Shown here: one piece after another, positions 9,531 to 64,000 of the stretch | Layout of the letters: every line of letters starts with the position of its first letter | Numbering within the stretch: position 1 is the stretch's first letter | Assembly (NCBI GenBank): GCA_963422465.1 | Contig: OY730175.1 | Span: forward strand, 2,232,001 to 2,296,000 | Origin: Lichina pygmaea | Taxonomy: Eukaryota > Ascomycota > Lichinomycetes > Lichinales > Lichinaceae | DNA length: 64,000 bases | Reading direction: 5' to 3' | The notes under the pieces: model-generated | Told to the model about the DNA's origin: nothing | What the model saw: the letters and a program-made list of their open reading frames with translations, nothing else | The model's database searches: none | Program-made: the position numbers and the translations under genes

Positions 9531-9725
9531 AGTGGCTCCCATCCTCTGGGTTGTAACACTACCCTCCTCTCCTTCATTCATTGTCCTGATGAATTCTTGA
9601 GTATGTCTGCAAAATCACGTGCCTCTGCTTACTGAAACCAACTGGCAGCCCAGATCTGTGATCATAACTTTGTGTCGCTTGCTCCGTGTGACTTCTGTGT
9701 TTTAAACCACAAGCCCTACCTCTGA

Positions 9726-9911: not shown

Positions 9912-10044
9912 AAGCGAAAGGTTCTTGAAGGTGCTGAAGGCTAAGCAAAGAAGAAGCTCCAGTGCCTTGTTGCTGAAATAGAGGTGGATGGTGAAGACTT
10001 GTCGGCAACAGTCATTGACACGTCTGCACTGCAGGCCAAGCTGT

Positions 10045-14882: not shown

Positions 14883-14900
14883 CTTTGAGGGTCTTCAAAG

Positions 14901-20748: not shown

Positions 20749-20959
20749 GACTGAACAGCTTGGCCTGCAGTGCAGACACATCAATGACTGTTGCCGACAA
20801 ATCTTCACCATCCACCTCTATTTCAGCAACAAGGCACTGGAGCTTCTTCCTTGCTTGACTCTCAGCACTCTCAAGAACCTTTTGCTTTCGGGACACACGA
20901 GCCTGCAACTCGGCAAGCTGCTTAACAAGAGTATCCTGCTTGGCCTTGTCAACAGCCAA
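20696..20959 (-). pseudogene. Antisense frame of A2, coiled-coil half
   Basis: Read opposite to pol. It has heptad-like QLAELQARVSRKQKVLESAE followed by a Cys-poor tail ending GGAGSSRGS. Its 3' end overlaps the chromodomain end of pol (20696-20748). The zinc-cluster half lies upstream, toward 21115. Equivalent to 4503-5085 in A1. Confidence 0.5.
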
Positions 20960-21240
20960 ATCCTCACAAAGGTTATCTCAAGTCATGTTGAGCAACTCCC
21001 AAGAGAGTGACACACAGGACTTCCCACAATAAGTGTATTCAGTGCACTTCAACTTATTGTTGTTGTCAGACATTCAGAAGCAGAGCTTATGGTTCAAAAC
21101 ACAGAAGTCACATGGAGCAAGTGACACAAAGTTATAATCACAGATCTGGGCCACCAGTTGTTTTCGGTAAGCAGAGGCATGTGATTTTGCAGACATACTC
21201 AAGAATTCATCAGGACAATAAATGAAGGAGAGGAGGGTAG

Positions 21241-21799
21241 TGTTACGACCCAGGGAATGGGAGCCACTTATTTATAGGCAATCAGGCTGTGGGCCAGGTA
21301 AGAGAACATCATGGAAGTCAAGTGACCAACTAACAAGAAGTCACGTGACTGTCAAGACACACACGGGAGTCTTGACACAACATGCATGAAGCATCAAGAC
21401 AATCTCACCAGTCTTGACACAGTATGCATGAAGCATCAAGACAATCTCACCTGTCTTGATGCAGGATGCATAACATGGTGGGACTGTCAAGACAATCTCA
21501 CCCATCTTGATGTCAAGACTGTCAAGACAATCTCAATTGTCTTGACAGGCCAGCACTATATAGTCTGGCGATAGTTCCCCTATGGAACAATCATCTTCAA
21601 CTCATGTTGTGATCCAGACAACTAGATCTACTTCAATACAATCCTTTTGTACAAAGCCATTGATCAGGTGTCACCACCACCACGTTCCACCAAACCCCTT
21701 CGCACTCCTTGACACTCCTCTCCTGCGAGAACCAACCCACTTTCCACCTCTCACCCTAATCCTATACTCAGATAGGACAGTACAGTACAGACCGCAACA
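21241..21799 (+). repeat. A2 3' LTR
   Basis: 559 bp, TGTTACGACCC to GACCGCAACA, preceded by the polypurine tract and followed by the GTGCA duplication. Confidence 0.92.
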
Positions 21800-24809: not shown

Positions 24810-26194
24810 GCAGATATCTCAGCATCAAAGATCTTGAAGAAGTTAGCAGGTAGCTTTCCTCCAGAGTTGGCTGATCTTGAAGAAAGAATTTGCACTTCTG
24901 GGAGTGCACCTCTGAGTCGCTCTGAGCTTCTGCTTGGCTCAGCTGTTTTACGTTTTTTCTCTCCTGGTAGAGACTGAGAGAGAGGGAAAGACATAACTGG
25001 GGGGGGTTGTAGAGCTGGAACAGAGGTAGCTGTTGGGATCTCATATTTTCCTGGGCGTGTGTTCCATGCTTCTCTTGCCTTCTTGGCTGCTTCCTGGCGT
25101 ACTGGACAGACACTGGCCCAGGCTGGGTGAGCTTCTCTGCAGTTGCAGCATTTTGGCTTGAGAAGCTGTTCAGGAACTTGGCAGGCTCTCCTTTCATGCT
25201 GGCCTCCACAGGCACCACACACAGCTTTGTTCTTGCAGAAGCGTGCTTGGTGTCCATAGCCAAAGCACTTGAAACATTATGCAATGACTGTGTCTGCCAG
25301 GAAAGGTTCTGCTTCATGCATCCTGTGCCCCAGCACTAGCCCACTCTCAATCAAAAGATTGGCTTGTTCAGGGGTAGCCAGATCCAGGTGGAGAGAGGTA
25401 ACTGGCTTCTTTTGAGCTATAGCCTTCTTAGACCAGTAGACTCTCAGGATGGTGATTTGTTTGCTCAGAGATGGGTTGCTGTTCTGGATTATCTGGCAGG
25501 TTTTCTCCAGGTCTTCAGGTTGGATATCTTCTGTTCTGACTCCATGGATCAGAACTGGGAATCTCTTGGGCTGGATGGTTGCTTCCTTTGTGAAGATAGC
25601 TGATACCCAGGCAGGGTTTTTCTCTAGGAAGACTTTAGTCTCTTGGCTTTCTGTGTTAATAAGGATATCCTCTGAAGGAAGTTTCCTTACTGCTCTGACC
25701 TGCTTGTTGTAGGGGCTGGGTAGTCTGTCTTGAAGAGTCTGGAAAAGCTGGATGTGAGTTCTATTAGCCATGTCAGGTGGCTGGATACCAGGATGTACAA
25801 GAACTTCTTTGAGAATTCTTGCAGGTAGAGGGATTTGTGCTGGAATAGATTTTTGGACAGCCTGGGCATATGATAGCTTGGCTTCTTGTTTGTCCAGCCG
25901 CTTGTTGATATTCTCCAGCTCCTGGAAGATTCTGTTGGTGAGGCCAGTAGAGCTAGACTGGGCTTCTGTAGAGAAGGAGTTCTTTTTGATATTTTCCCAG
26001 CTTTTCAGAATAGATTCTGGGACTGGTTGGGTTTTGATCCAGGAGTCTACTAGTTTGTAGTCATTCTGGGGAGCTGGTTGGAGGGTAGGAGAGCTGGACT
26101 GGGTGCTAGGCAGACTGGAAGCTGGTTGGGAGAGTATAGCTGGTGTAGCTCTGGTGTTACTTTCTGAAGAGGTGGGTTTTTTCTTCTTGGGAGC
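24806..26194 (-). pseudogene. LINE ORF1 (gag-like, three CCHC knuckles)
   Basis: One frame is open from about 26194 down to 24806, apart from one TAA at 25277-25279. That stop lies directly before the first knuckle and probably replaced a CAA. Knuckles: CFKCFGYGHQARFC, CGACGGQHERRAC and CCNCREAHPAWASVC. Upstream is a conserved region (RTHIQLFQTLQ to VLGHRMHEAE, 25771-25280) typical of fungal Tad-like ORF1 proteins, which bind RNA and chaperone retrotransposition. No clear ATG was found at the 5' end. The stop overlaps the ORF2 start as ATGA. Confidence 0.75.
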
Positions 26195-27640: not shown

Positions 27641-30600
27641 TTAGCGGGTAGGAAGGACGTGCGTTCCTCCTCGCGCCCCACCACGCGCTCCGCCACGTCC
27701 GTGCCCTGAATCGGTTGAAGCGCCCGGGACAGTCCTTGGAGTCGCCGACGCAGCGGGAAGACTCGGGCGATGGCTGGACGGCCCAACCTCCCGAGCGCCC
27801 CCACCACCGATGGTAACAGCGTGCGCAGAAAAAGGCGCTTGCTGGGTGGGAGGACCGGCCGCAGAGACGTGAACGCTGGGCCCGACTCGCTGAGTAACAC
27901 CCTGAGAACCAAGCGAAGTACCGTGCGCGGGAACGGATGGGTCGTAGATGAAAGTGTTGTGGGTGGAAGAACTGTGGGTCGGGATGTGAATACCGAATGC
28001 CGGGCCCCCGGGGTGATGGCCTTGGCCGGGATGATGAATTTGACCGGAGTCGTGGCCAGAACCATGGCCAGGGCCACGGCCGAGGCCATGACCACGCCCG
28101 GTACCCGCAGGAGCACGAGAGACCGGGGCAGGATGATCGAAGACACCGGTGGGAGGAGCACGAACAGCAGACCCAGTAGCAGAAGCAGCACGACCGGCCG
28201 CAGCGACCCTCTCGGCCTCCAGCCGCGCAGTCTCGGCGCGCCTCTTCCGTGCCAAGTGACCCTTGATACCACGAAGGTACTGCATCGCGAGATCCTTCGT
28301 CTCTTTATCCTCGGGGCTATTCCTGATGCCGTCCATGATGAGCGACAGCTGTTCTTCATCGCGCAGATGCGGACACTTGTTGCCCGCGCCGACATGCGCA
28401 AGGTTGCAGAGCGGACACCGCTGGTAGCCGGCGAGCTTGAGCGGGCAATAGCCCACCGGGTGGGTCTCGTCGCACGCCAGACATTTTCGGACGCTGCCGT
28501 CGCCGGCGGCGTGCTCGTTGGTGACGCTGGCGCTGGCGCTTGACAAGGCCGTCGCCCATCGTGTCGTCGACCCGGAGCCGACTCCGCTGGGTGCCATGCC
28601 TGGGGCGGTCGACAAGGGCCAGGCGTACCGTGGCAGCGGATTGCTAAGTTTGGAAGGCATGGCAGTGGTCGATGCGCCTGGCCTGACGAGAGGCCGGAGG
28701 TGGGCTGACGTGGGGGTCTTGGTTAGTGCTGAGGTCATAACGTCGCAGGGAAGGCACAAAACCTTACCATATGTCTGACGAGGAGCTCCGACGGCCGAGG
28801 CACCAGACGGACTGACAGCATGAGGCACGCCACGAGCTCGCGCCTCACCCGGCTCGTCCTGACGCACCTCGTCTGCATCGGGCTCCTCATCGTCCGTCTC
28901 GTACTCGCCATCGTCGACGTGCCGGTCATCGAAGTCGGTGTCGCTCCTTGCCTCTGGCTCTGGTTTAAGAGGTGAGGAAGCCCCGTGCATGGTCTGCTGA
29001 GCGTAGTCGACAACCTGAAGAGGCCAGGTCAGCGACCGTCCAAGTCCAACCCCCGCAGATCGCAGGGCAACCCACCACGCGCCGCCGTTTACCCCTCCCA
29101 AACGTCTCTTGGGCTTCTGCGCGTCGCTTCGCAGCGTCTTGCTCACGTTCAACCAGCAGCTTGTCCCAGATGCTCGGGTCGGGCATTGTCTCCTCCGCCT
29201 CACTATCCTTGAGTCCATCCTGTAGGTCCCCTTGATCGTTGGCCCAGACCCTGGCAAAACTAAACTGCGACTCGGCCGATTTCTCGTCGTTGGTCTTCGT
29301 GTTCTCCGCCTGAGTTCTGTCCAGAAGCTTTTCGACCGACGCCACGTCGTAGCGGATATCCCTTTCGTCTTCGTCGTCGAACAAGGCTGCCGCTCCGTGC
29401 TTCAGGATCGAATGCAGATCCAGCTCCGACTCGTCCTCGGCGTCCATCTTCTCGATCAGAATATGGTCTAGGGCCATCTTCTTGCGCCCGATCTGAATGA
29501 CCTTCTCTTCGGCACTATCCCGTGTTACCAGCTGGAACACCAATACTTTCTTCTGCTGTCCGATCCGGTGCGCACGAGACAGCGCTTGGATGTCTTGGTG
29601 CGGATTGAAATCGGGATCCATGATGATGACCGTGTCTGCAGTCGCCAGATTGATGCCAACACCGCCGGCGCGGGTTGACAACAGAAACGCGAAGAGAGAC
29701 GAGCCTGGAGCGTTGAACGTGTCAATCTTCTTCTGTTTCTGAAGGCTGCCAGTGCTCCCGTCCAGTCGTTCAAACGGCAAGCCAAGACCGTCGAGGAAGT
29801 CCTCTACAACGCTCTGCACCTGATTAGCTCGCACCGAATACGTTGCTCTTGCCGCCACTCACCAGCATTTCAAGAAACTGACTGAAGATCAAGACCCGAT
29901 GACCGCGCCCCTTCAGAGCCGGTAGCATGATCTCAAGCAGCCGGAGTTTCGATGATGCATCCACGAGAGTGCGGTGTGACACCCCTGCGTCGAGACTCCG
30001 CTCCTCGATGGATTTGCTGTAGATGAACGGATGGCAGAGGCATTTTCTCAGCTGCATCAAGATGTTGTTCAGGTTGCTCCGCTCGGTCTTTTTCAGCTGA
30101 TGGGTCTCTCGCCGGAAGATCGACTTGATGAGGTCTGGATTCCTCGCAAGAATTGACTTATACAGCCTCTTTTGGAGAACCGTCATCGACACGGGAATGA
30201 TGATCTGGGCCATTGGCGGCAGAAAAGTCAAGACTTGCGCCTTGGTCCGGCGCAGGAAGAACGGTCGGATCAGATCGTGCAAGCGAGTCACGGATTCTGC
30301 ATCTAACACGGCGTATTCTTCTTCCAGCTCGGCGGCGTAGAGACTGCTGTCCAAGAACTGCAGCAGGTTGAACAGTTCGCGAGTGTTGTTCTGGAGCGGC
30401 GTGCCTGCTCAAATTTAGCATCGGCGACGATATGAACGGAAAGCTTCAACCTTACCTGTGAGCAGGATCTTGAATGGAACCTTGAGGGCGTTAAGAGCAC
30501 CGTAAAGGAGGTTCTTATCGTTTTTGAGCCGCTGGCCTTCATCGACGACCAAGCCAGCCCACGGAATCCGCCTCAAGAAAGCTCGGCTGCTATCATCCAC

Positions 30601-33353
30601 CGGCGTCTCATAAGAAGTGATGACGATGTGGCATCTCAAGTCTCTTTTGCCGCTCACGCACAGCTCATGTTTCATCGCGACCTCCCTGGCTTCGATACTT
30701 CCGTAGTACGCCACGGCGCGGAGGCTCGGTGCCCATCTCTTGATCTCACGTCTCCAGTTGAGGCACGTTGAATTCGGGACGACAATCAGAAAGGGCCAGC
30801 AGCCGTGGTCGTGGACGAGCGTGGTCAGCAATCCGATCACCTGTATAGTCTTTCCCAAGCCCATCTCGTCCGCAAGGATGGCGTTCTGACTCTGGTACCA
30901 CTTGTACAACAGCCAGTTCAACCCATCCAGCTGATAGTCCATCATCTTTCCACCAGCCAGCTTGGCCGGCTGCTCCTTCTTCAGGAGGGTCTTCTGAAAG
31001 TTCCTGGATCTGACATCCTCCAGTTTGTCCCTCAAATCCTTCTGGTTCGGCAGATGGATATGTCGTCCTAGTACCCAGTCGTTGTATGCTAGCACAAACT
31101 CCTCCCAGCGATTGCCATCTTCTGGTTTCGGCACTTCTTCCCATACGATCTCGTCATAGCCTAGTCCCTTGTATTTGACGAGAGCCAATTCCACATCAGT
31201 GACCCTGTCTCTCTCTGCCTCCTCGCTCTGTCCGTCACCAACGGTGTCATCCGAGTATTCGACGTCCAGTACAATGTCGATCGTGATGTATTCTTCCGGA
31301 ACAGCCTCGTCCGTCGTCAATTTCGGGAGGTTGTAACCGTGATCGTGTTTTGCAAAGGCCTTTCGCATTGCAGCAGCGGTGACACCCCACACCCAAGCCC
31401 CTGGCCTCCAGCTTGCCTGCAGATACGACCGCCCTTGCCACTTCACCAGATACTCCTTTTCGTCTTCGTCAACCATATCTACCGTGAAGCCCGAGTTGAT
31501 GGTGTCAAGGTCTGTAGGTCTCCAAGCCACGAGCGCCTGCAGTCTGCCCGGCGTGCTTCGGCAGTCGAGACAGGCCCAGTCCTTGTTGTACTGTGTGAAT
31601 CGCTTATCGGCAGCGTTGGCTTCGTCGGGATCTTCCTCCTCGGCCTGAGCATCAGGCGGTGGTAGGTGCTCGAAGTGAAAGGCTCGTTTGCAAGCTTGGC
31701 AACGGAACAGGATGCTCTCTACGTCATTGATCAACGCCTGATCGACCCCAACAACAGGGTCCTCGCCACCGTTCTCCTCCCTCTCTCGCTCCTCTTGCTT
31801 TGCTGTTTTCCGATGTCGAAAAGGGGCACAGGAGGGCCCGGCTTCTTCGCAGACCTGACAGATGTCGAGACGAGGAGCCTTAGGCTCTTTCTTCCGGTGG
31901 GCATTCACGCAACGTCGGCATTGGAGAACAAAGTCTTCATCGGCAATCTTGGTGACCAGGTGGTCCCTGCTGTTGCGGTGTCCCAAACAGCCTTTGTGAT
32001 GAGCGAGCACACAGCCTTGGCAGAACACGAGCAGGCCTTTGATGTCGCTGTCGCCATAGTCACCGCATGTGTCGCACGTCTGCTGGTGCCTGAGACGAAA
32101 ATCGTCGTCCGACTGTCGTTTGAATGTTTCTCTCGCTCCAATGGCCCTCGAACCTGAACGACCACTGTCGTGAATCTCCTGGTTCCAAATCTCGTCTTCC
32201 GTGCGTTCTCGCATGCTCTTCATGGGTCGTCCAACCCTTTCGGATCTTCGAATCCCTTGCGTTTGCAGTCGCATACCTAATCTTGACGATGAATCTGACC
32301 CGCCGTGTACGACTCGTTTGCGGAGATATGGTCCTGCAGAAGACTTGCTTCTTTTCCTCTTTTTGAGCCTTCCCCCAACTGTCTTCGGCGAATTCTCATA
32401 ACTTGAGCTCTCGTCTTCCGCGGCTTCCTCGTCCCAGGAACCCTCAAGCTCATGCTCATCATCGAATTCGAATGTAGCACGAGCTTGACGACCGCGACGG
32501 AGTCTGAGCATCCTAGTCGTGTTGGGAAATCTCTCTTGATCTTGGGCTGAATGTTAGAATCCTTTCTAAAGTGCAAAACAGGTCTCGTACTCCACCAGGC
32601 TTTCGGTGAGCATGAAGCAAGAGTGTGGTGGCCCGGCTCACCCTCATCTGATGATTGTATCGCATAAGCACCGACGTTGCCGGGCAATCTTTCACTTCTT
32701 CCACGTGAGCTCTGATTGTGGAATGAAATCAGATCATCATCGGCGTCTGAGGTGGATGTCGACACCGAAGTGATGCTCAGGTCGTGCCTTTGTCTGCTGC
32801 GTCTAAGAGCTGTGATGGCCTGAAACTGATCAAGCTCGGTCTGACCGTTTGTACGCCGAATCAATCGAGAATCGCGAATCTGGCATAGAGCAATGAATTA
32901 GTATAGTAACAGCTGCATCGTCAGATGGAACAACGGGCCAGGGTCATAGCAAGCAAGGAGCCAGCCATGCATTAGATTCGGGAGTGTTCGCGGATCTGAA
33001 CATGTGATTGTTTCCGCCCAAGTACGTACGCCGACACGGAGCCCGGTCCCAAGCACGACCTGATGATATGAGACGCCGTCAAAGACTCCTAGTCCCTTGG
33101 TAACCCTCTTGATGACATATTCCTTCGGAACATCAATGTAGCCGTCTCGGTTTCTGACTGGGTTGACGACTACTTCCACCTTCGTTCGTTCTGACCGCCG
33201 CCCTGGGCTCACATTCGACGGCAAAGATAAGGCTGCTGCTCTGTCGTTCAGTGTCTCTGCGGGGCTGTAGAATCGCTCGTTCCGTCTTTCATCCCCTGTC
33301 GTGTCTGTCGACGGCGATCGGCGAGTGCCGAAGACATGTGCTGAATTTTCCAT
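27641..33353 (-). CDS. mit1: Mit1/CHD3-like SNF2 chromatin remodeler
   Basis: Seven exons: 33353-33030, 32879-32642, 32546-30456, 30404-29863, 29819-29076, 29014-28768, 28704-27641. Introns are 150, 95, 51, 43, 61 and 63 bp, all GT..AG with CTAAC/CTAAT-type branch sites. The sum is 5250 nt, giving 1749 aa. Domains: two PHD-like Cys/His clusters (about 345-410 and 427-525), two chromo-like segments (YLVKWQGRSY near 553; ELALVKYKGL near 640), SNF2 ATPase with DEMGLGKT (near 750) and DEGQ as motif II (near 856), helicase C with SRAHRIGQ, and a C-terminal zinc-binding motif (CLACDETHPVGYC...CPLCNLAHVGAGNKC, about 1480-1530) characteristic of fungal Mit1 homologs. In fission yeast Mit1 is the remodeling ATPase of SHREC, used in heterochromatin silencing. 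The tail is Gly/His/Arg-rich. The 63-bp last intron is in-frame and stop-free, so its splicing is the least certain point. Confidence 0.88.
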
Positions 33354-42791: not shown

Positions 42792-45700
42792 CTACTTCTT
42801 GCCCTTCTTCTTGCTCTTTGTCGCCGCGCTCGATGCCGTCGAGAGCACACTGCCGGCCCGAGAGGCCGTCGTCGATCTCGACTTGGTGCCGGCTCGCGAC
42901 TTGACGTTGTCCAGCTGCTTGTTGAGCGCCTAGGTGCGGTCGAAGGTTAGCGGATGCTGCGATGCTCATCATCATCGTCGTCGTCGTCGTCAGAATCATC
43001 GTCGCCGGTACGAAAGCGGCCCAGGCTCACCTTGACGCCGTTCTTGGCCTTCTTCTTCGGCGGTGCCGCGTCCTCTCCGTCCTCGTCCTCGTCCTCGTCC
43101 TCGCCGCGCTCTCGACCCTTCGCCTTGGACGTCCCGTTGACGGCCTTCCCGTCCGCGCCGTCAAACTCCCTGGCGATCGCGGTCAGCAGCGTGCTGCACC
43201 GGCGGCTGAGCTCGACCGGCGTGCGGCTGAGGAAGAACCAGTCGAAGCGGAAGAGCGGGCTCTCGCGGATCTCGTCGCGGATCTTCTCGTGGAGGCCCTC
43301 GGCGTCCAGTCCGTACTTGTCGAGCTGCACGAGCAGGAATCGATCCTCCTCCTCCGTGTAGACCTTCTTGTTCGTCGTCGAGACCGAGTAGTTGACCTTC
43401 AGCTGCTGCAGCGGAACGCGGTACATCTGCATCTTCTTGCGCAGCATGTCGCGCTGGTGGTTCAGCTTGCGCATGCGGTCCTCGCCCGCCTCGATCGTGC
43501 CGATGTGCCTCTGCGACTCGGCAATCTCGCGGAAGCGCTTCCAGAAGACCTTGGCGTACTGCCGCACCTCGTCCTCGGCCTTGTTGTCGATCTCGTGCGC
43601 GATCATGCCGTGGTTGTTCCGGCCGTGCTTCGCCGAGCCGTTGACGAACTGCTGGAAGTCCCGGCGCGACCAGTTGCCGAAGCCCTTCTCCTCCAGCCGT
43701 GCCTTCTCGGCCTGCTCCGCCTCCGTCAGCGGCGTCGCGTCGTCGATCTCCTTCTGCTCGAGCTCCCTCTCGGCCTCGCGTTCGCTGAGGTCGTCGTCGT
43801 CCCCGTCCGCCAGCGGCACCTTGTAGTTCGTCTGCCGGCGGTAGTTGGCCGTCTCCCGCTCCTGCAGGTCTCGGAGCAGGGGCGGGTAGAACTGGTAGTC
43901 GTGCACGAGCACCTGTTTCGGCGGCCGCGGCGCCTTGGGCTTGCTATCGGCGACCCGGCCGCCCGTAGCGAGCGCCTTCCGGTAGTAGTTGTCGACAGAG
44001 TAGGCCTGCTCCTTGCGCTCGCGCTTGGCCGGGTTGATCCAGCTCATGCCGACCTCCTTCTTCCGGTTCGTGAAGTCCTCGCCGTTCCACTCGTACGCCG
44101 AGTCGGACGTGAACTTCTGGAGGTCGTCGATCCCGAGCTGCTCGTACCGTGCGTTCAGCTGCGCCGTCTTCTCCTCGCCGTGCCGCAGGATCGAGTCGAT
44201 GTCGTCGTCGCTGAGGCCTGGCTTGCTCGCGAGCGCTCCGGTCGCTCCCTTGGTCTTGAACACGCTCTCGGCGCCGTGCTGGATCATCGTCAGGAGCTCG
44301 CCCTTGGACGCGGCCGTCTGTTGCTGGGTGCGACCCTGTTGGATGACGAGCTGGTCGAGGCGCAGCTTCTGTGCCGCCCGCTCGAGCACCTTCTCCTCGA
44401 TGGCGTTCTCGGTCACGAAGCGGAACACGACGACCTGCTTCGTCTGGCCGATCCGATGGGCTCGGTCCATCGCTTGCAGGTCCGCCTGCGGGTTCCAGTC
44501 GCTGTCGTAGAGGATCACGATGTCCGCGCTGGTCAGGTTGATGCCGAGGCCTCCGGCGCGGGTCGTCAGCAGAAAGATGAACTTCTCCGAGTCCGGCTTG
44601 TTGTAGTCGTCGATGGCCGAGATGCGTTGCTCGTGCGCGGTGGAGCCGTCGATGCGGCAGTACTTGTAATCTCGCATGACGCAGTAGTCTTCGAGGATGT
44701 CCAGCAGGCGGCTCATCTGCGAGAAGATCAAGACCCTGCTGTTCTGCTGCTTCATGCGGGTCAGGAGCTTGTCGAGCATGACCATCTTGCCGCCGTTGAT
44801 GACCAGGTGCTCGTCCGTCGTGTAGGGAGGGCCGGGCTCGGCCCCCTCGAAGAGGTAAGGGTGGTTACAACACTTCCTGAGCTGCATGACGATGTTGAGC
44901 AGCCGGGTCTTTGACTCTCGATTCGACAACGCTCCGTTGACGGCGTCGATATCCTTCTCGAGGATCTTCTGGTACCACTTGACCTGCATCTCGGACATGC
45001 CGATGTAGAGGTTCACCTCTGCGTCGGGTCGAGCGCGTCAGCAGATGAACCAGCCCATCGTAAAAGCGAACGGCGGCGGATCTTGGCTCACCTTTCTTGG
45101 GCAGCAGACTCTTCTCAACGTCACTCTTGACCCGTCGCAGCAGAAAGGGTCGCAAGACCTTGTGCAGCTGCTGCACCACCGTCTCCTGATCCGTTCCCTG
45201 CCGCTTGAACCATTCGTCAAAGGCCTCGGAGCTGCTGAAGACGTCTGGCAAGAGAAAGTTGAGCAGCGCCCACAGCTCGTGCAGGTTGTTCTGAAGAGGC
45301 GTGCCGGTGATCAGGAGCCGATTCCTCGACTTGAACAGCCGGATGATCTGCGCGAGGGAGGACTCCTCGTTCTTAATTCGATGAGCCTGGTCGAGCGAGC
45401 GTCAGCGTCGGAGGATTGCATTTCACGGGGGGGAGCTCGCGGGCCGACGTACCTCATCGACGATGATGTACTCCCACGCGAATTTCTTGAGGTGCGACTT
45501 CTCTCGAAGCACCATCTCGTAGCTCGTGATGCAGACGTCGAATTTCTCGTCGACGAGCCGATCAGCGATCAGCTGTCCGCGCTCCTCCTTGGCACCCTGA
45601 AGCACCAGCACGTTGACCTCGGGAGTCCACTTCTGGAACTCCCGCTTCCAGTTGTCCAGCGTCGACTTGGGCACCGTGATGAGATGAGGCCCGGTCACGT

Positions 45701-53432: not shown

Positions 53433-54424
53433 CTATTTTATTTTATTTTATTCTTACTCTGATTTGGCTGGTGAGCCATGCAGAACTTCTAGATATATGC
53501 TTGTTTTCTCAGAAAACCTTTAAAGGAATAAAAACTAAGACTTGGGTAAGACTAGGGAAATATCTGCAAGAATATATAGTGTCTGAAGAGAATAGAAATC
53601 ACAGAGATAGGAGACTTTCTGGCAAGAGTTTGTGTGCTAAGTTGAACTGGTCTAGTCTTTTCAAAGACATAAACCAGAGAAGAAATTCTTTAAGCACTTT
53701 AGGCTTTTGAAGTAAAGAAGAGAAATTGTAGGAAAGAAAAATAGCTTGCTGTCTTTGAGTAAGAAACTTATTACAAAAGAAAGTGATATGTTGGGCAGTC
53801 TCTTCTCCAAAACCACAGGAACATAAAGAAGATTGGAAGTCTGGAACATTTGCTCTGAAAAGAAAGCTGGCTAGTCCTATTCTTGCTGATAGAATCTGCA
53901 AGTAAAGACTAACTTCAGCTTTTCTCAAGTCTTTGAAAACTTTGAGATTTTTCTTTTGGGGTGGTCTGCAAAATAGCTCCCAGACTGGAGAACACTTCTG
54001 ACTGTTTGTCTGCCATCTGGCTTCCCACTCTCTCTGAAACACTTCTTGCAGTTATTTCTTGGAGTAATCTTGGTTAGTGGTTAGTTCTTCTAGCTATCTT
54101 GCTTTCCAGTTAGGTATGACAGTAGACAAAGACTTTGGAGGTGTTCTTAGAGTGGAAACAAAAACTGTGATCTGGGAGAAAAGCTTGTGAAGAAGTGAAG
54201 AGGGAGAATTAAGAGAAAGTATTAGAAAAATAGAAAGATTGTAGGAAAGTTGCTGTTCTGTATTTGAAATAAAGATCAAGAGGTGGTAGGAATAGTTCTT
54301 CTTTAATAAGAAGTTTGGGAGTAGCTTTAAAGATACCTCCTATAGTTTTTAGACACTTAGTCTGGAAAAGATTTAAAGAAGAAATATTAGAAGGTTTTTT
54401 GTGGGAATTGAACCAGACTCCTAC
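53433..54424 (-). mobile_element. Tad-like LINE, 3' fragment (Tad-b), interrupted by Family C
   Basis: Minus strand. The left end is a TTTTA-type tail (53433-53452; A-rich in sense), preceded by the ORF2 C-terminus. Conserved segments are RIGLASFLFRANVPDF and the CCHC motif CSCGFGEETAQHITFFC (within 53599-54042), and further upstream TKCLKTIGG and PPLDLYF-like wording. It is joined at 54424 to a Family C LTR, so the 5' part is displaced. Several stops are present. Confidence 0.75.
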
Positions 54425-55439: not shown

Positions 55440-56042
55440 TGTTGTAGTCTGTACTGTGCTGTCCTAACTGAGTATAGGATTAAGGGCAAGATGTGGAAGA
55501 CAGGTTGGTTCTCACAGGAGAGGAGTGTCAAGGAGTGTGAAAGAGTTTGGTGGAATGTGGTGGTGGTGACACCTGATCAATGGCTTTGTACAAAAGGATT
55601 GTATTGAAGTAGATCTAGTTGTCTGGATCACAACATGAGTTGAAGATAATTGTTCCATAAGGGAACTATCGCCAGACTATATAGTGCTGGCCTGTCAAGA
55701 CAATCAAGATTGTCTCAACAGTCTTGACGTCAAGACAGGTGAGATTGTCTTGACAGTCCAACCATGTTATACATCCTGTGTTGAGACCAGTGAGATTGTC
55801 TTGACACTTCATGCACACTGTGTCAAGACAGGTGAGATTGTCTTGATACTTCCTGCACCCTGCATCAAGACTGGTGAGATTGTCTTGATACTTTATGCAT
55901 GCTGCGTCAAGCCACCCATGTTTGTCTTGACAGTCACGTGACTCTTTGTCAGTTTGGTCACTTGACTTCCCATGGTGTCCTCTTGCCTGGCCTGCGGCCT
56001 GATTGCTTATAAATAAGTGGCTCCCATCCAGGGATTGTAACA
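55440..56042 (-). repeat. Family A LTR (3' LTR of A4)
   Basis: 603 bp. Same ends and iterons as the left-nest LTRs. It most resembles the A1 5' LTR at its left end (shared AAGGGYRAGATGTGGAAG). Confidence 0.88.
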
Positions 56043-56339
56043 CTACCCTCCTCTTCTTCATTTATTGTCCTGATGAATTCTTGAGTATGTCTGCAAAATC
56101 ACATACCTCTGCTTACTGAAAACAACTGGCAGCCCAGATCTGTGATCATAACTTTGTGTCACTTGCTCTGTGTGACTTCTGTGTTTTGAACCACAAGCCC
56201 TGTTTCCAAATATCTGACAACAACAATAAGTTGAAGTGCGCTGAATGCACTTGTCATGGGAAGTCCTGTGTGTCGCTTTCTTGGGAGTTGTTGAACATGA
56301 CCCAAGATAATGTTTGCGAGAATGTGGCCACTGAAGAGG
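56043..56339 (-). mobile_element. Family A element A4, 3' internal stub
   Basis: Polypurine tract and antisense-frame region of a minus-strand Family A element, inserted in Family C integrase and cut at 56340 by the LTR of A5. Confidence 0.8.
56156..56339 (+). pseudogene. Antisense Zn2Cys6-type frame of A4 (truncated)
   Basis: Shows the full cysteine set CDFCVLNHKPC then KCAECTCHGKSC with spacing C-x2-C-x6-C-x11-C-x2-C-x6-C. The coiled-coil part is cut off by the next insertion. The last 50 bp resemble the A5 variant more than Family A proper. Confidence 0.6.
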
Positions 56340-57021
56340 TGTTGTCGTCTGTACTGTACTGTCCTATCCGAGTATAGAATTAGGGCGAGAGGTGGAAGGC
56401 AGGTTGGTTCTCGCAGGAGAGGAGTGTCAAGGAGTGCGAAGGGGTTTGGTGGAACATGGTGGTGGTGACACCTGATCAATGGCTTCATACAAAAGGATTG
56501 TATTGAAGTAGATCTAGTTGTCTGGATCACAACATGAGTTGAAGATGATTGTTCCATAAGGGAACTATCGCCAGACTATATAGTGCTCAGTTCGTGAGCA
56601 CAGTGAGCTCTGCTCACTTTGCTCACTCAGTGAGATCAGTGAGCTCTGCTCACTTTGCTCACAGTTCATGCACGCTGCGGCGAGCTGGGTGAGCTCTGCT
56701 CACTTTGCTCACTTGTTCATGCACGCTGCAGTGAGCTGGGTGAGCTCTGTTCACTTTGCTCACTTGTTCATGCACACTGCAGCAAGCTGGGTGAGCTCTG
56801 CTCACTTTGCTCACTTTTCACACACACTGTAGTGAGCTGGGTGAGCTCTGCTCACTTTGCTCACTTGTTCGTGCATATGCATGCTGCGGTGAGCACCCCC
56901 TGGTTTGTCTCACCAGTCACATGACTGGTTCCCGTGTCATGCTGCCTGGTACTTCTGTCCAGTATCCTGTCTGCTGCTTTCTGTGAGTATATAAAGACTG
57001 TGTTCCTCCTGGGTCATAACA
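56340..57021 (-). repeat. Variant Family A LTR (A5) with a different iteron set
   Basis: 682 bp. The part next to the left end (56340-56585, sense U5/R side) matches Family A closely. From 56586 the TCAAGAC iterons are replaced by GTGAGC/GCTCAC iterons. The right end (TATATAAAG, then CATAACA) differs again but keeps the antisense TATA at a similar distance (33 bp) from the edge. Confidence 0.8.
56604..56900. repeat. Variant U3 iteron array, about 51-bp units
   Basis: Dyads start at 56680, 56731, 56782, 56832 and 56889. A full dyad is GTGAGC (or GCGAGC), a 12-bp spacer (TGGGTGAGCTCT), then GCTCAC: 24 bp in total, the same overall length as the TCAAGAC dyad of Family A. The connecting skeleton TTCATGCACGCTGC matches the Family A skeleton TTCATGCATCCTGC. 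Confidence 0.8.
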
Positions 57022-57136
57022 CTATCCTTCTCTCCATCTTTCATCATCTTGATGAAATCTGGTCATACCTCCAAAGTCATGTGCGACTGTTAGCTGAACT
57101 CAGCTTACTGCTCTAATCTGCGATCAGAGTTTTGTT

Positions 57137-57379
57137 TTGCGTACACCCTGCAATTTTTGTGTTCTCTGTGGTTATCTGTACTTCCAGATGTCAGGAGAAG
57201 ATGATAAGTTGAAATGTGCTGTGTGCACTCAGCACGGAAGATCTTGTGTCTCTGTGTCCTGGGAATCTCTGAACATGTCCCAGGACAACCTTCGTGAGGA
57301 TGTGGCCACTGACAAGGCAACACGCAATGCACTCTTTGAACAACTTGCCACAGTGCAGGCTCATCTGTCTTGGAAGTGA
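57137..57379 (+). pseudogene. Antisense zinc-cluster/coiled-coil frame of A5 (diverged)
   Basis: Diverged relative of the Family A frame: CNFCVL, then KCAVCTQHGRSC, then an Asp/Glu-rich stretch with LFEQLATVQAHLS. It sits opposite pol directly after the LTR, as in Family A. Its divergence parallels the change of LTR iterons. Confidence 0.5.
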
Positions 57380-57682: not shown

Positions 57683-58481
57683 TTTTTATTTTATTTTTTT
57701 TTTTTATTTGATTCTTACACTGTTTGTAGCTTTACAGCCATGCAGATCTTCCAGCTAATAGTGAACTTCTTCAGAAAACCTTTAAAGGAATAAAAACTGA
57801 AGACAGGGAGGTGACTAGAAAGTGTAGCAAAAGGAAATCTTGTAGTGTCTGGTAGGAAAAGCTTCTAGATGTTGGAGTGTGAATAGTGAAGTTTGAAAGC
57901 CAGATTAAATTGGTTTAGTCTTTTCAAAGACATAAACCAGTACAGAAACTTCTGTAGAAGCTCTGGGTTTGAAATAATAGTAGTGAAATCTTGGGGGTTA
58001 AAGAGAGCATGTTGTCTTTGACTTGAGTAGAGAGAGCATGAAGAGGTGATATGCTTTACTGTCTCTTCTGCTTGACCACACATGCATAGGGGGGTAGGAA
58101 AGTCAGGGACTCCAGCTCTGAAAAGAAAACTTGCTAGACCAATTCTCCCAGTTCTGGTTTGCAGTAGTAGACTTGCCTCAGCTTTCTGTAGCTCTTTGTA
58201 GAGCTTTAGGTTGTTGTAGTGAGGTTTTTGGCAAAACACCTGCCATCCAGCATAGCCTTTTCTTTTCTTCTCCTCCCATTGGTTTTCCCACTCTTTAGTA
58301 AAGAGTATTTGTAGTTCTTTCTTTGAACTAGCCTGGTTAGTAGTTATTTGACTTAACCAAGTGAACTTCCAATTAGGAGAGATAGTTGAGGATTTCTTTA
58401 AAGGTTTCCTCAGTGAAGAAGCATAGGAAGAAATAGTAGCAAAGGTACTGTCAAGAAAGTCTTTCAGAGAGGAGGTTTGGG
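57683..58481 (-). mobile_element. 5'-truncated Tad-like LINE insertion (Tad-c)
   Basis: 799 bp, minus strand, with an A-rich (T-rich as shown) tail at 57683-57709 and flanked by an 11-bp duplication, the normal product of target-primed reverse transcription. It encodes the ORF2 end: RIGLASFLFRAGVPDF, CMCGQAEETVKHITSSC (CCHC) and WFMSLKRLNQFNLAFKL (57865-58239). Same family as Tad-b. Confidence 0.85.
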
Positions 58482-58492
58482 AGGTTGATAAT
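58482..58492. repeat. 11-bp target-site duplication, right of Tad-c
   Basis: AGGTTGATAAT, matching 57672-57682. Confidence 0.85.
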
Positions 58493-58849
58493 AGAATGTT
58501 TCCTGCAAGGGTGTGCTCTGGTCGGCTGGTTCAATCATCAATATATGAAAGTTTGGATGGACTCTGGCATCCCTTGGTAGTTGTATCTTGATGTTGACTA
58601 GTCCTGTTTTTTCTTTGACTGAAAATAGTCTGACCTTGATGTTGTCAAGTTTCTTTGTTTTTGGTTTCTTTGTTTTCCAATTTCTTGTGAGGAGGTAGAC
58701 TTTATCCCCCTTCTTTAGCTGAGGTGCTATTTTCAATTTCTTGTCTATTTGATGTTGTATTCTTTCTGAGGTCTCTTGAAGGTAGTGCCTCATCATCATG
58801 TGTGTTTGTCGTAGGAGCTTGTCATGTTGGAGTGCTTTCTCCGTGTTTG

Positions 58850-59272
58850 TGTTAAAGGCCGGGCTGGGTTCACACAGAAACCGGTACAGTCTGTTGCTTC
58901 GTGGGCGGATTCTTAGACAGGGACTCGGTAGAGGAATAGACAGGTGGGGTAACTCTCCTGTGCTATTGTCTCCGTACGATGGGTTTGTATTGTGTTCAGC
59001 CTGGAGAGCTAATCCCTCCGGGCTTTTTGGGGGTCTTTATACAGATGCCCCAAGGGGGGGGTCTTCTCAAGGGGTATCATCCTTTTGCGTGGACGAGCTC
59101 CTCGCTTAGCTCCTGCTTGTCCACCGGACAAGCTCCTTGCTTAGCTCCTGCTTGTCCACCGGACAAGCTCCTCGCTTAGCTCCTGCTTGTCCACCAGATC
59201 AGTCGGATGTTGTTCTGCATGACTAACACCTCTCCCTCGCTTACCTGGGCTGTTCTGGCCTAGGCCTTAACA
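58850..59272 (-). repeat. Family B 3' LTR
   Basis: 423 bp. In sense it starts TGTTAAGGCCTAGG and ends GGCCTTTAACA. It has a sense TATA (TATAAAG near 59036) and a 3 x 35-bp iteron array. Confidence 0.9.
59091..59195. repeat. Family B U3 iterons, 3 x 35 bp
   Basis: Three exact-length units at 59091, 59126 and 59161. At each unit junction lies the dyad CTTGTCC-ACC-GGACAAG (59116-59132 and 59151-59167), 7 + 3 + 7 bp. The sequence is unrelated to the Family A iterons but the arrangement (tandem dyads in U3) is the same. Confidence 0.88.
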
Positions 59273-59357
59273 CTATCCCCTCCCTCCAAGGGTTCTGTCC
59301 CCAGATCCTTTTTGTTCCTGCTCCTCTTTTGCCATGAACCAAAGCCAGACAACTTGA

Positions 59358-59906
59358 ACTTGTTGTCACAGTTTTCTCTCTTGTCGTGTTGGCAAAATAG
59401 GCAAGGAATCAAAAATCGCATGCGGTGCTTGTCGTCGTGACCACGCCAAGTGTGTTGTGAGCTCCGCATCGTCTTTTTGTTGTCGGTGCATCGAGAAGGG
59501 TTGTCGCTGTGACCTTCATCTCTCGGAGTCAGAATGGAAGAAGATGGAACTTGAGCGTGAGCAGCTCAAGGCTCAGCTGCGGGAGACTGATGACCAACTG
59601 TCAAAGCTGCTTCCCCAGCAGATCCACCTCCGCCAGCAGCTGGGTCGTCTCTCACAGAAGGAGGCTGATGCTATCTGTCATGAGCTGTCGGCCATCAAGG
59701 ATCAAGAGTCCCTTGATGCTCAGGAACAAGAGGCCCTCCGTGTTATCCGCGAACGGGAGGTCTGTCAGGCTGCTGCTCCGCCGTCCTTCGAGGATGTCTT
59801 CTCTTCAGAGGCTTTGGCTTCTCTCAAGCTGTTGTCTCTGTCAGACCTGGTTGTTGTGGATTTGCTCGGTGGTAATCCACCAGTTTCTGGTTCATCGCAG
59901 AGCTGA
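59358..59906 (+). CDS. Antisense Zn2Cys6 + coiled-coil frame of Family B
   Basis: Open on the strand opposite to pol, between the 3' LTR and the chromodomain. It carries CGACRRDHAKC and then CCRCIEKGCRC, giving C-x2-C-x6-C-x8-C-x2-C-x6-C (codons 59421 to about 59508), the Gal4-type binuclear cluster, with basic residues in the first loop as in DNA-binding members. It is followed by a long charged heptad-rich region (EWKKMELEREQLKAQL, then LRQQLGRLSQKEADAI) and a tail ending VSGSSQS. It overlaps the chromodomain end of pol by about 83 bp. No unambiguous start was found. It is not the family's gag, pol or env. Proposed role: a DNA-binding dimeric regulator (inference). Confidence 0.65.
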   Translation, partial: TCCHSFLSCRVGKIGKESKIACGACRRDHAKCVVSSASSFCCRCIEKGCRCDLHLSESEWKKMELEREQLKAQLRETDDQLSKLLPQQIHLRQQLGRLSQKEADAICHELSAIKDQESLDAQEQEALRVIREREVCQAAAPPSFEDVFSSEALASLKLLSLSDLVVVDLLGGNPPVSGSSQS

Positions 59907-60090
59907 AGTTCTCGGTTGGTTCCCACAAATTCTCCTCTTTGTCAAATCCTAACCACTTCACCAGGTACTCAGTTTTCTGTCTATTTCTTCGACTATCCAG
60001 GATTCTTTCAACATTGTACTCTTCTTCGTCGTCCTCGAAGTTCCATTCTGTTTCGATCTCCGCGTCGCTGGGTGCTGGTTCGAGCAGCAA
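59824..60090 (-). pseudogene. Family B chromodomain (integrase C-terminus)
   Basis: EEYNVERILDSRRNRQKTEYLVKWLGFDKEENLWEP-type chromodomain with the aromatic cage-like Y/W/W positions, at the 3' end of pol. Confidence 0.85.
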
Positions 60091-60402
60091 GACGTGGAAT
60101 ACTCAGTGTATCCTTGCTTTTTGTGGCAGTCTCAGTTGATAGTTGACCTTCCCAGTGCGCTTCTTGATTTCGAATAGTCTGATTCGTACATGATCCAGCT
60201 TTTTGCTTGGTCGCTTCAAGCGCAGGTTTTTTGTTGATAGGTAGACCTTATCCCCCCTTTCCAGGGTTGGTCCCTTCAACCTTTTGTCGTGTAATCAGTG
60301 GGTGGTAGTGTTCTGGGCACAGTCGATCATTGTTTTCATCATCTTGTGCATAGCAGCAAGTTTGCTAACATCAACAACGTTGCCTTCTGCTGTTGCCTGC
60401 CA

Positions 60403-61212
60403 TCAGGGGTTTCTTCCGTAGTTCGCAAAGAACAGTGTTGTCCCTGTCACGCTATGTTGCTGGTTGTTGTACACAAACTGGGCTATTGGTAGCAGTTCCA
60501 CCCAGTTGTCCTGCTGGTGGTTGATGTAGTGTTGTAGATACTGCTCCATTGTCTGGTTTGTCCACTCAGTTTGTCTGTCGGTTTGTGGGTGGTAGGCTGT
60601 CGACATCCTTGTATCAATGCCAAGTTGCCTTGTCCACGTGTTTCAAAATTTCAAGGTGAAGAGTTTGTCTTGATCTGAGATGATTGTCTTTGGTAGCCCT
60701 CGGTGGCTTACCAGCTCTCTGAGTAGAACACTCGCAAGTTTGTTCGCGGTTCCTGACTCTTTCCACAGGACCAGGTGGGCGTATTTGGTGAGTTTGTCAA
60801 CAACCACCAAAATACTATCATATACCACCTTTGTTGCTGGGTCTGTTGACTTTGGCAACTTGACCACAAAATCCATCGTGATAGTTTCCCATGGTGCCTC
60901 GGGTAGGTCTATCTGCTGTGCCTGCCCGTAGGGCTTATGCCTTGATGGTTTGTTCTTCGCACACTGTTCGCAGTTGCGGATGAACTCTGTCACCTTGCGC
61001 TTCATTCTGTCGAAGTGGTAGTTCCTTTGGATTTTCTCCAAGGTTTTATCTTGTCCGGGGTGTCCATGCAAAGGCCCGTCATGGTGCCTCCAGATCACCT
61101 CCTCTTGTGCTCTTTCTGGCACACTTTCCTTTTTGTTTGCTGTCTTATGGCCAAGGGTAAGGAGTGGACCCTTTGTTTCTGTTGTTGCCAGTTGGGGTTG
61201 GGCATAGACCAA
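60403..61212 (-). pseudogene. Family B integrase
   Basis: Zinc-binding region (HHDGPLHGHPGQDKT, then NCEQCAKNK), catalytic core (TMDFVVKLPKSTD, VVVDKLTKYAH) and the STAYHPQTDRQTEWTNQ segment. Part of the Family B pol fossil. Confidence 0.88.
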
Positions 61213-61299
61213 GGTTCATCCTTTTGTCGCTAGGATTGGGTGTTCCTCTGTTGTTTTCTCATCCATCAGGTCTGGTCGCCTGCTGAGGGCGTCCACTCG

Positions 61300-62340
61300 A
61301 GGATTTTCAGTGCCCTTCCGGTAGAGGATTTGGAAGTTGTATGATGCTAACAACTCTGCCCATCGAACTTGTTGTCAGTTTAGCTTCTTCGTTGTTGTGA
61401 AGTAAGCTAAGTTTTTGTGGTCTGAGTACACGTCTATCGTGTATTTTGCCCCCTCCAAGTAAGGCCTCCATTCTTGGAATACGTCGACAATTGCTAGCAA
61501 CTCTTTGTCGTGGATGTTGTATCTCAGTTCTGGGCCAGAGAACTTTCTTGATCAGTACGCGACAGGGTGTAAGCGGTTGTCAGCGTCTGGTTGACACAAG
61601 CAGGATCCCACTGCTTGGTCCGAGGCATCAGTCTCCAGAATGATCCTCTTCTCAGGATCAAATGATGCCAAAATGGGTGCGGAGGTGAATTTATCCTTCA
61701 ACTCCTGGAAGGCCGCTTGTTGGCTCTCTCCCCACCTGAAAGATTCATTCTTTCTGGTTAACTCTGTCAAGGCTGCTGCTGTTCTTGAGTAGTCCTTGAT
61801 GAATTGTCGGTAGAAGTTTGCAAACCCTAGGAAGGATTGTACTTCTTTGAGGTTTTTGGGTGTTGGCCAGTCTCGTACTGCTGCCGTCTTTGTGTCGTCC
61901 ATTCAGATTCCTTCTGTTGTCAGGATCAACCCCAAATATTCCACTTCCTTTGTGTGGAAAACACTTTTATCCAGGCGTAACCTCATCCCTGCTCTCTGGA
62001 GTGCATGTAGGATCTTCTTGACATGCTGTTTGTGCTCCTCCAAGATTCCATTGGTGTATACCAAGATGTCGTTGATATAAGCGGTGACAAATATATCCAG
62101 GTATTGTCAGAGGACAGTGTTAATAAGTGATTGGAATGTCGCCGGTGCATTTGTAAGGCCGAATGGCATCATGGTATACTTGTAGTGCCTGTACCTTGTA
62201 CGAAAGGCTGTCTTCCATTCTTCACCGTCTTTCATCCTAACCAGGTTGAAAGCGCCTCAAATGTCAAACTTGGTAAACTATTTGGCTCCTTGGATCTGGT
62301 CTTGGATTTCTGATATCAATGGCAGCGGGTAACAGTTTTT
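61300..62340 (-). pseudogene. Family B RT (C-terminal part) and RNase H
   Basis: Segment VQSFLGFANFYRQFI after the RT core and the RNase H start ILETDASDQAVGSCLCQ (61552-61902). Further RT sequence continues to 62340. Lightly broken. Confidence 0.82.
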
Positions 62341-63870
62341 TACTGTAATCGCATTTAGCTGCCGATAATCAACACACAGTCGAAGTTTGCTGTCTTTCTT
62401 TGGCACAAACAATATCAGGTATCCAGCCGGTGATGTTGAAGGTCTTATGAACTCTTTTGCTAGGTTCTTGTCCAGGTAGTCTCTCAGGGCCTCAAGCTCT
62501 TTTGCTGACAGAGTGTAGATAGGGCTGTGTGTGGGTTTTTTTCTGTCTTCCAGCGGAATCTTGTGGTCCCACTCCTGATGTTCCGGTAGTGTCATGATCG
62601 CTGTTTCTTCGAACATCTCCTGGTATTCTTTATACTCACTTGGCAGCTGCGGTGCCTGAGTCTTGCCCACGGTGTCTTGCGTAGTGCAAAGTTGTTGTGT
62701 TCGGGGCTTCATCCAGGCCACACAGGCCTCCCCGCGCTGGTGGTATTTCTTCCACTGTGTCAGTGAGATTTCTTTAATCATCACCCCTGGTTCTGACATG
62801 ACCAGTGTCTCGTCCGGAAAGACTAGTTGCCTTCTTTTCCAGTCAATCCTTGGGTTTTGTTTTTCCAACCACGGAAGTCCTAATATAACTTCATGTGGTA
62901 TCCGGACCAAGTTGAATTCTTCTGTTCTGATCGTCATGCTATGGACACTCAGTCTCAGGCTCTTGGTCTCCTTCGTCACTTGTCCCTTGTCTTTGGAGAG
63001 TGGTGTTCTGTCCACTACCGTCAACTGGTAGAGGTCTCTCTTGCCTTGGACTGGAACCTTGTTTCTTCTGGCAAAGCTTTCTGACATGAAGTTGCCAGTC
63101 ACACCAGAGTCAATCATGGCCTTAGCCAACCACCCATTGACTCTGATCTTGATGTGAAAATGCGGGCTGCAGGCTGTTGCGTCAAGACTCAGCTTGACTC
63201 CTTCCTCCCGGGGTGTTGTCTTGCCTCGCTTCTCAAGCTCTCTCTCGAACTGTCGGTCATCGATGCGAGCCGCAGTCTCAATCATTTCGTAGAGCTCGGT
63301 TGGTCGGTCTCCTCGCGTGATGTCGTCATTGACTTGTTCCTTGAGGTCTTGGTAGAATAGTGCTGTTAGTGCACTGTCTCCCCACTGGGTCCTCACTGCT
63401 AGTTGTTGGAACTTCGCCGTGAATTCCGATGCTGATCCAGTTTGCCGCAGTGCTTGGAGCTTTCGTTCCACATCTCTTTCCTTGTCGAGGATCCCAAACA
63501 TCTTTCTCATAGCTGTCTTAAAAGTTTTCAAGCTTCCCATGACCTGTCGGGTATTGTCTTCTTGCTCCTTGGGGTCTGCCTGATTGTCTAGGTAATCTCT
63601 TAAGTAGATGTTGAACCAAGCGAAGACTGGTCCTTCCAGGTAGAAGGCTGCAAATAGCACCTTCTCCTGGTCTGTTGGGAACTGGGCTGTGTTGAACCCA
63701 TAGTAGAGCTCCAGTTGTGAGAAGAACAACTCCAGTCCTCCCCTGGATCCATCATACCTCTTCAGGGCACCTACCTTCAAGGGCTTCGGGGGTAGGTTAA
63801 CAATAGGTGCCGCCTGGACAGCCTGGACTTGGGCTGCCTGGGAAGGGGTAGGGCTTCGTGGATCCACCAT
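62278..63870 (-). CDS. Family B gag-protease-RT(N-terminal) reading frame
   Basis: 530-codon open frame beginning [16 protein letters not shown], 39 bp inside the 5' LTR. Gag-like capsid region ([26 protein letters not shown]), then directly a protease ([25 protein letters not shown]) and the RT N-terminus ([26 protein letters not shown]). No CCHC zinc knuckle lies between gag and protease, unlike Family A. Gag and pol are in one frame, as in the Tf1/sushi type of chromovirus. Confidence 0.85.
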
Positions 63871-63908
63871 CGTATCAAGTTAGTGTCCTGTACGTTAGAG
63901 ACTGAAAC

Positions 63909-64000
63909 TGTTAAAGGCCAGGCTGGGTTCACACAGAAACCAGTACAGTCTGTTGCTTCGTGGGTGGATTCTTAGACAGGGACTTGGTAGAGGAATAGAC
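63909..64000 (-). repeat. Family B 5' LTR (partial, runs off the window)
   Basis: Matches the left 92 bp of 58850-59272 with only a few differences, which suggests a fairly recent insertion. Confidence 0.88.

Follow-up and report, generated by a model that had tools for sequence, protein, structure and literature searches.

The stretch of DNA analyzed here, the window, comprises 64,000 nucleotides of the ascomycete Lichina pygmaea (contig OY730175.1, positions 2,232,001 to 2,296,000), and a Ty3/gypsy chromovirus, here Family B, subfamily B1, occupies the minus strand of its last 5 kb. Opposite its pol gene, this element carries an antisense gene for a small cysteine-cluster protein, the subject of this report. 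The element matches the Pfam families Retrotrans_gag, RVP_2, Integrase_H2C2, rve, and Chromo and has long terminal repeats (LTRs), which together identify it as a chromovirus. Its 3' LTR lies at 58850–59272 (−), with ends TGTTAAAGGCC...TTAACA, and the start of its 5' LTR (63909–64000, −; 92 nt, 96% match to the 3' LTR) runs out of the window. Also on the minus strand are a gag and protease frame (62278–63870), the integrase zinc-binding domain with the start of the core (60643–61212), and the chromodomain frame that ends pol (59824–60102; PF00385, E = 2.7e-14). No zinc knuckle was matched between capsid and protease in the gag-protease frame. Next to the 3' LTR, at 59273–59287, the minus strand reads GGAGGGAGGGGATAG, which we take to be the polypurine tract; on the plus strand it would give the antisense gene a pyrimidine-rich leader.

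As the initial annotation had described, a frame opposite pol is found on the plus strand between the 3' LTR and the minus-strand chromodomain, open between its bounding stops for 182 residues (59358–59906, +). Its placement in the gap between the two is right only in part, because the gene overlaps the tail of pol, and only the tail. The chromodomain frame of the window copy ends at 59824; in less decayed copies, pol overlaps the antisense gene by about 161 nt (B1) or about 143 nt (B2), a long form seen in two of five B1 and five of six B2 copies among the 11 inspected. Relatives from public data (P0002, 190 residues) begin with an ATG whose counterpart in the window is position 59334, and we place the B1 gene at 59334–59906 (+), with the frame at 59358–59903 and the stop codon at 59904–59906. 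The window copy is damaged, with one stop codon between the ATG equivalent and the 182-residue frame, and intact copies are present elsewhere. These antisense genes start about 60–85 bp inward of the 3' LTR, encode about 165–190 residues, and converge with pol. Beyond its cluster, the window copy has several extra cysteines that are arginine in other copies, the six cluster cysteines being unaffected. Decay in the copies L009–L038 and L069–L088 consists mostly of C-to-T changes at CpG and less in other contexts, and it accounts for these extra cysteines.

The gene recurs throughout the organism's own genome. A search with the 182-residue protein, in which 150 of 275 candidates were scored, gave at least 150 B-type relatives, all scored ones at E ≤ 2.4e-81, and by row count 116 of the 150 are free of stops in the matched part. 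A search with the homolog P0062 gave subfamily B2, in which 61 copies reach at least 85% identity and 53 of these lack a stop; B1 and B2 proteins are about 57–66% identical. We read 80 copies, namely 50 from B1 (the top 30 rows plus 20, every other one of rows 31–69) and the top 30 B2 rows. They were picked by protein similarity, which biases the sample toward intact genes. Among the 80, 79 retain the start codon (50/50 B1 and 29/30 B2), no in-frame stop is present in 28 of 50 B1 copies (one with a gap) and 29 of 30 B2 copies, and the indels between B1 and B2, of 6 and 36 nt, are both in frame.

Selection was estimated as the ratio of nonsynonymous to synonymous substitution rates (dN/dS) over the 124 codons outside the pol overlap, with columns containing a CpG in any copy masked and 300 random pairs for each comparison. 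The ratio is 0.21 (0.10–0.36) between B1 and B2 and 0.16 (0.06–0.38) within B1, and the 20 lower-ranked B1 copies give 0.21 (0.11–0.45) among themselves and 0.22 (0.10–0.37) against B2. The other five frames give 0.46 (0.24–0.83), 1.06, 1.21, 2.12, and 3.25. Between B1 and B2, the cysteine cluster stands at 0.07 (0.01–0.24) and the helix that follows it at 0.16 (0.06–0.35); the stretch overlapped by pol, at 0.47 (0.18–1.18), is uninformative. These data confirm that the antisense frame is real, protein-coding, and kept by purifying selection. Both homologous antisense frames in other copies and constraint independent of pol, which the initial annotation had named as what its reading depended on, are thus present. 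Moreover, because selection is seen within B1, the constraint acted while the gene belonged to the element. Scoring of 8000 candidates against the family profile turned up no host homolog.

The cysteine cluster, C-x2-C-x6-C-x8-C-x2-C-x6-C, lies at 59421–59510 (+) with the Zn2Cys6 spacing first attributed to it. Each of its six cysteines is kept in at least 49 of 50 B1 and at least 29 of 30 B2 copies. When the 182-residue protein is shuffled at constant composition, the spacing arises in 4 of 20,000 trials, and six relatives treated in the same way each yield it 0 or 1 times in 20,000. Only 4 of the 293 window frames of at least 80 residues match the pattern: the Family B frame, two frames of a second family (Family A, below), and one tandem-repeat artefact. 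The cluster conforms to the PF00172 pattern C-x2-C-x6-C-x(5-16)-C-x2-C-x(6-9)-C, which is matched exactly in 14 of 19 B homologs. The PF00172 profile itself does not bear out the assignment, since the window copy goes unmatched with E allowed up to 1 and the best relative, P0008, scores 20.0 of the 21 bits set as the curated cut-off (E = 7.6e-4); with the limit raised to E = 5, 7 of the 19 homologs are matched. When a profile of 14 B homologs was aligned by hhalign with eight host PF00172 domains (27 PF00172 matches are present in the genome), all six cysteines fell in register (P = 6.7e-5, probability 64%). Among solved structures there were two weak matches (E = 0.76 and 0.82) and no Zn2Cys6 entry at E up to 1. 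Zn2Cys6 folds contain short helices that begin inside the CxxC pairs. AlphaFold2 predicts short helices at residues 31–35 and 50–55, each beginning within a CxxC pair, at a predicted local distance difference test score (pLDDT) of about 50 or less. The label “Gal4-type” thus appears partly supported, by spacing, conservation, and the profile-profile match.

After the cluster comes a long helical region (59526–59800, +), corresponding to residues 65–147 of the 190-residue P0002. The AlphaFold2 model, built from 14 sequences (mean pLDDT 69.9, predicted template modeling score 0.32), has a single helix there, with pLDDT 94–97 over residues 71–140. The architecture proposed at the outset, a zinc cluster followed by a long heptad-rich region as in dimeric fungal transcription factors, therefore survives as a cysteine pattern and one long predicted helix, but the cluster lies below the Pfam cut-off, and the heptad pattern is no better than in shuffled sequences, of which 241, 373, 108, and 57 of 1000 reach the score of the four proteins scored. 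By sequence statistics, a dimerizing coiled coil is not supported. The C-terminal stretch (59801–59903, +), which partly overlaps pol, is acidic and hydrophobic: the last 50 residues of P0002 include 7 acidic, 1 basic, and 13 hydrophobic residues, and the motif FSSE-LASL is nearly invariant between B1 and B2. Its composition would allow it to be an activation domain.

U3, the part of the LTR directly upstream of the antisense gene, contains a tandem array of inverted half-sites. In the window, this is three units of 35 bp, GGACRAG-N18-CTYGTCC-N3, at 59091–59195, 139 bp before the ATG equivalent. B1 arrays in general have one to six 35-bp units (GGACGAG-N18-CTCGTCC-N3), and B2 arrays have one to four 47-bp units, each with two direct and two inverted half-sites; the half-site GGACGAG is common to both subfamilies, and the intervening sequence differs. 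The palindromy of the repeat unit exceeds that of shuffled units in B1 (14/1000) and in some arrays of Family A subfamily A1 (2, 49, and 77 of 1000). Genome-wide, there are 185 occurrences of the B1 palindrome with its 3-bp gap and none of the reversed control. In L096, a copy of a third subfamily, B3, the unit differs from that of B2 at 13 of 47 positions, eight of which are an identical two-base swap in all four half-sites, giving GGCAGAG in place of GGACGAG; its 18-bp core occurs nine times in the genome, against none for the reversed control. The swap removes a CpG, which might be an escape from methylation.

Gene and array are linked. Gene type equals array type in 79 of the 80 copies read, and the exception, L048, combines a B2 array of its own with a B1 array some 250 bp farther away that we attribute to a neighboring element. 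Across 12 aligned copies, B1 and B2 are 97–99% identical in pol as far as the chromodomain, fall to 45–79% over the gene and U3, and return to 99% on the U5 side. The U5 of the 50 B1 copies is of B1 type in 26, of B2 type in 19, and untypable in 5, so that 19 of 45 typable copies are mosaic. Gene and array appear to be passed on together as a single cassette, with recombination affecting other parts of the LTR. Mosaic LTRs, in which a B1 copy has a U5 or TATA region of B2 type, include those of L012, L028, and others.

What could such a gene do? Starting from what is directly observed, namely the gene, the constraint on it, its cysteine cluster, and the position of the arrays and their linkage to the gene, we propose that the protein encoded antisense in the Family B element regulates the element's own LTR. 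The LTR, with its U3 directly upstream, would drive antisense transcription. The protein would dimerize, fold around two zinc ions, and bind the inverted half-sites tandemly repeated in the U3 of its own element, thereby tuning LTR transcription of all copies of the subfamily. Because its C terminus is acidic, it would more likely be an activator than a repressor. It might thus work in the manner of HBZ or Tax of human T-lymphotropic virus 1 (HTLV-1), using a DNA-binding domain of fungal type. We regard the whole chain as evenly poised between right and wrong. Protein binding sites are favored as the reading of the arrays because the direct half-site repeats of L096 changed alike and because B1 and B2 keep the same half-site and not merely its pairing.

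Several observations weigh against this proposal. First, no scanned protein of Family B or A reaches the PF00172 cut-off, and we infer antisense transcription, zinc binding, DNA binding, the target sites, and the sign of regulation from sequence. Second, constraint is uneven: within B2, where divergence is small, dN/dS is 0.66 (0.18–3.11), indistinguishable from 1, and between B1 and B2 it reaches 0.90 (0.26–4.02) over the first 25 codons. Third, the other B3 copy read, L095, has a clear swap only in half-sites 3 and 4, and the B3 cluster differs little from that of B2, so that a changed recognition helix does not explain the swap. Fourth, palindromy is not above that of shuffled units in one A1 array (646/1000) or in the array of subfamily A2 (335/1000), and the arrays fold well as RNA relative to shuffled sequences (z = −6.0, −8.0, −3.2, and −4.6). 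Finally, gene and array are only about 100 bp apart, which makes their co-inheritance partly trivial, and the linkage counts are of copies rather than independent recombination events, which makes that evidence weaker.

Other readings of the same data have to be considered, chief among them action on host genes and an RNA role of the arrays. One, which we think unlikely, is that a real zinc-cluster protein acts elsewhere, on host promoters or in host silencing, and that it is a host factor that uses the U3 arrays. Zn2Cys6 proteins act as regulators in the host, and tandem repeats are common in U3 and need no factor encoded by the element. The palindromes speak partly for this possibility, since 6 of the 27 exact ones on contig C1 are not placed near a listed gene copy, but 12 lie within 500 bp upstream of such a copy and 9 lie 5–6.5 kb off, at the distance expected of a 5' LTR, 21 of 27 in all. 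The unplaced six may be solo LTRs, only 150 copies having been scored. In addition, array and gene change together between subfamilies.

A second alternative, improbable in our judgment, is that the arrays act as RNA hairpins (in packaging, stability, or 3' end formation) and that the protein is a nucleic acid-binding helper replacing the missing zinc knuckle of Gag. In its favor, the arrays fold far better than their shuffles, pairing is preserved in the change from B2 to B3, and the lack of a zinc-knuckle match in the gag-protease frame keeps such a helper role possible. Against it, direct and inverted half-sites change alike between B2 and B3, beyond what pairing needs, although repeat homogenization could explain this; an antisense gene is an odd location for a virion protein; and the cysteine spacing is that of Zn2Cys6 and not of CCHC.

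We give little credence to a third, in which the antisense transcript itself works, through double-stranded RNA or silencing, and the protein is secondary. Antisense RNAs of LTR elements can act in this way, as discussed in PMC7264820, but selection here is on the amino acids of the antisense frame only, and 53 of the 99 majority-base differences between B1 and B2 fall at its third codon position. Finally, a chance frame is ruled out by the kept ATG, the in-frame indels, the dN/dS values, and the shuffle test of the spacing, and a recently captured, functionless fragment of a host gene is hardly credible either, given hundreds of copies with dN/dS well below 1 and no host homolog among the candidates scored, even if the window copy is broken and lacks a profile match.

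The proposal that Family B regulates its own LTR draws support from Family A, in which a similar arrangement recurs in the window and the genome. The initial annotation had noted a frame at the same location with the same spacing; an antisense cysteine-cluster gene is indeed there, but in the window it has x11, not x8, between cysteines 3 and 4. The A1 frame at 56120–56377 (+; C-x2-C-x6-C-x11-C-x2-C-x6-C) has a tandem array of 42-bp units upstream (55776–55911), and the A2 frame at 57098–57379 (+), with remnants of the cluster, has one of 51-bp units with half-sites GTGAGC/GCTCAC (56620–56875). Three further A1 frames lie at 4605–4874 (+; weak array at 4281–4330), 9636–9914 (+; array at 9245–9432 within the LTR), and 20885–21163 (−; internal stops, array at 21368–21471). 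Five of the six antisense gene copies in the window, that of Family B included, have a clear tandem array 139–223 bp upstream, and the sixth has a weak one. The genome holds at least 150 Family A antisense copies (150 of 491 candidates scored), 137 of the 150 without a stop. An E limit of 0.1 gives 147 homologs (120 listed), which are up to 166 residues long, in several cases start with MPPKSRA, and in 37 of the 42 that reach 95 residues have the pattern C-x2-C-x6-C-x(10-11)-C-x2-C-x6-C. Between the four A1 copies of the window and six A2 loci, dN/dS is about 0.10 (0.08–0.25; synonymous sites are nearly saturated), against 1.17 and 1.09 for the other two plus-strand frames.

Against PF00172, Family A gave nothing better than E = 0.12, and hhalign with the eight host domains gave P = 1.2e-3 and a probability of 19%; solved structures returned mostly coiled-coil proteins (best E = 0.029) and no Zn2Cys6 entry at E up to 1. 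DUF3716 was considered as the family and is a weak candidate (P0087, E = 0.055, 13.8 of 22 bits; best E = 0.16 in another scan); it is not named in the open-licence literature searched. A shared origin of the A and B proteins is not supported either (hhalign probability 8.5%, cysteines out of register).

Taken together, the two families may represent a portable self-regulation cassette consisting of an antisense factor of Zn2Cys6 type and its own palindromic targets in U3. Factor and sites would co-evolve, move as one block between elements with near-identical pol, and have been established in two or more families whose factors look unrelated and whose half-sites differ. We put this forward tentatively, as somewhat short of probable, and the same caution covers co-evolution, for which the sign is the same swap in four half-sites.

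The remainder of the window is largely a setting for these elements. Within 58464–63999, the Family B element interrupts a Family A element between its integrase and chromodomain regions; the pol frame of the latter crosses the LTR border near 58850. An A1 element of about 6 kb occupies 8917–15390, with a 300-nt LTR stretch repeated at 95% identity and 5984-bp spacing and 42-bp arrays in both repeats. Frames with a CCHC cluster and RNase H-like sequence at 25181–25276, 53599–54051, and 57865–58530 (all −) presumably belong to Tad-like non-LTR retroelements. Host genes between the repeats encode two chromatin remodelers, one Mit1-like (27641–32511, −; PHD-like, Chromo_MIT1, zf-CCCH_6) and one ISWI-like (42947–45016, −; HAND, SLIDE), domains that point to an ascomycete host.

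The Family B protein can be compared with several known systems. With fungal Gal4-type Zn2Cys6 proteins (PF00172), it shares the six-cysteine spacing, basic residues between cysteines 2 and 3, and a helix after the cluster; it differs in falling below the Pfam cut-off, in lacking a middle regulatory domain, and in being encoded by a mobile element. HBZ is a basic leucine zipper protein of a human retrovirus, HTLV-1, and is unrelated to the Family B protein. The likeness is that of a transcription regulator encoded antisense from the side of the 3' LTR (excerpts of PMC11963269).

Antisense genes at the junction of pol and 3' LTR are already known, and most Family B copies, with a conserved gene there, join those elements classed as carrying an antisense open reading frame (aORF). 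In plants, the aORF-3R genes of Retand (TRP28), Grande (gene23), and RIRE2 lie antisense between pol and 3' LTR (excerpts of PMC11963269 and PMC7264820). As described there, TRP28 is predicted to bind DNA and about half of the elements have tandem repeats in this region, but the protein domain is another one, the repeats lie between pol and LTR rather than in U3, the hosts are plants, and Retand is not a chromovirus. Closer is brtn, published in 2011 from the fungal Gypsy element Boty, where it lies antisense between pol and the 3' LTR, and carried by Boty-like Ty3/gypsy elements of Botrytis and Sclerotinia (Zhao et al. 2011, via excerpts of PMC7264820, PMC8365987, PMC4227169, and PMC5987419). 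Boty, too, is a fungal Gypsy element that has a chromodomain, and its antisense gene is likewise linked to pol and the 3' LTR; the comparison with the Family B gene is by published description and not by BRTN sequence. Its gag-pol has a C2HC zinc finger (excerpt of PMC4227169), whereas no zinc knuckle was matched in Family B. The excerpts describing plant aORFs and brtn (the five articles just cited) mention neither a Zn2Cys6 cluster nor LTR target sites, and PMC3248453 does not mention antisense. The view that no such gene had been described therefore needs qualification: brtn has been known since 2011, but no antisense Zn2Cys6 gene in a Gypsy element was found in the open-licence literature searched, most matches being judged by their listing.

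What is new here is the U3 half-site arrays beside the gene. For the known antisense genes of plants and Boty, no function is given in the excerpts cited; Family B adds a recognizable DNA-binding type of cluster and measured selection. As candidate target sites adjoin the gene in hundreds of natural variants, the long-open question of what antisense genes do becomes directly testable. If the proposal is right, element-borne Zn2Cys6 factors could be a source of both regulators and binding sites in fungal genomes, and the cassette would be a fungal counterpart of control by HBZ and Tax, offering ready-made factor-site pairs to host promoters.
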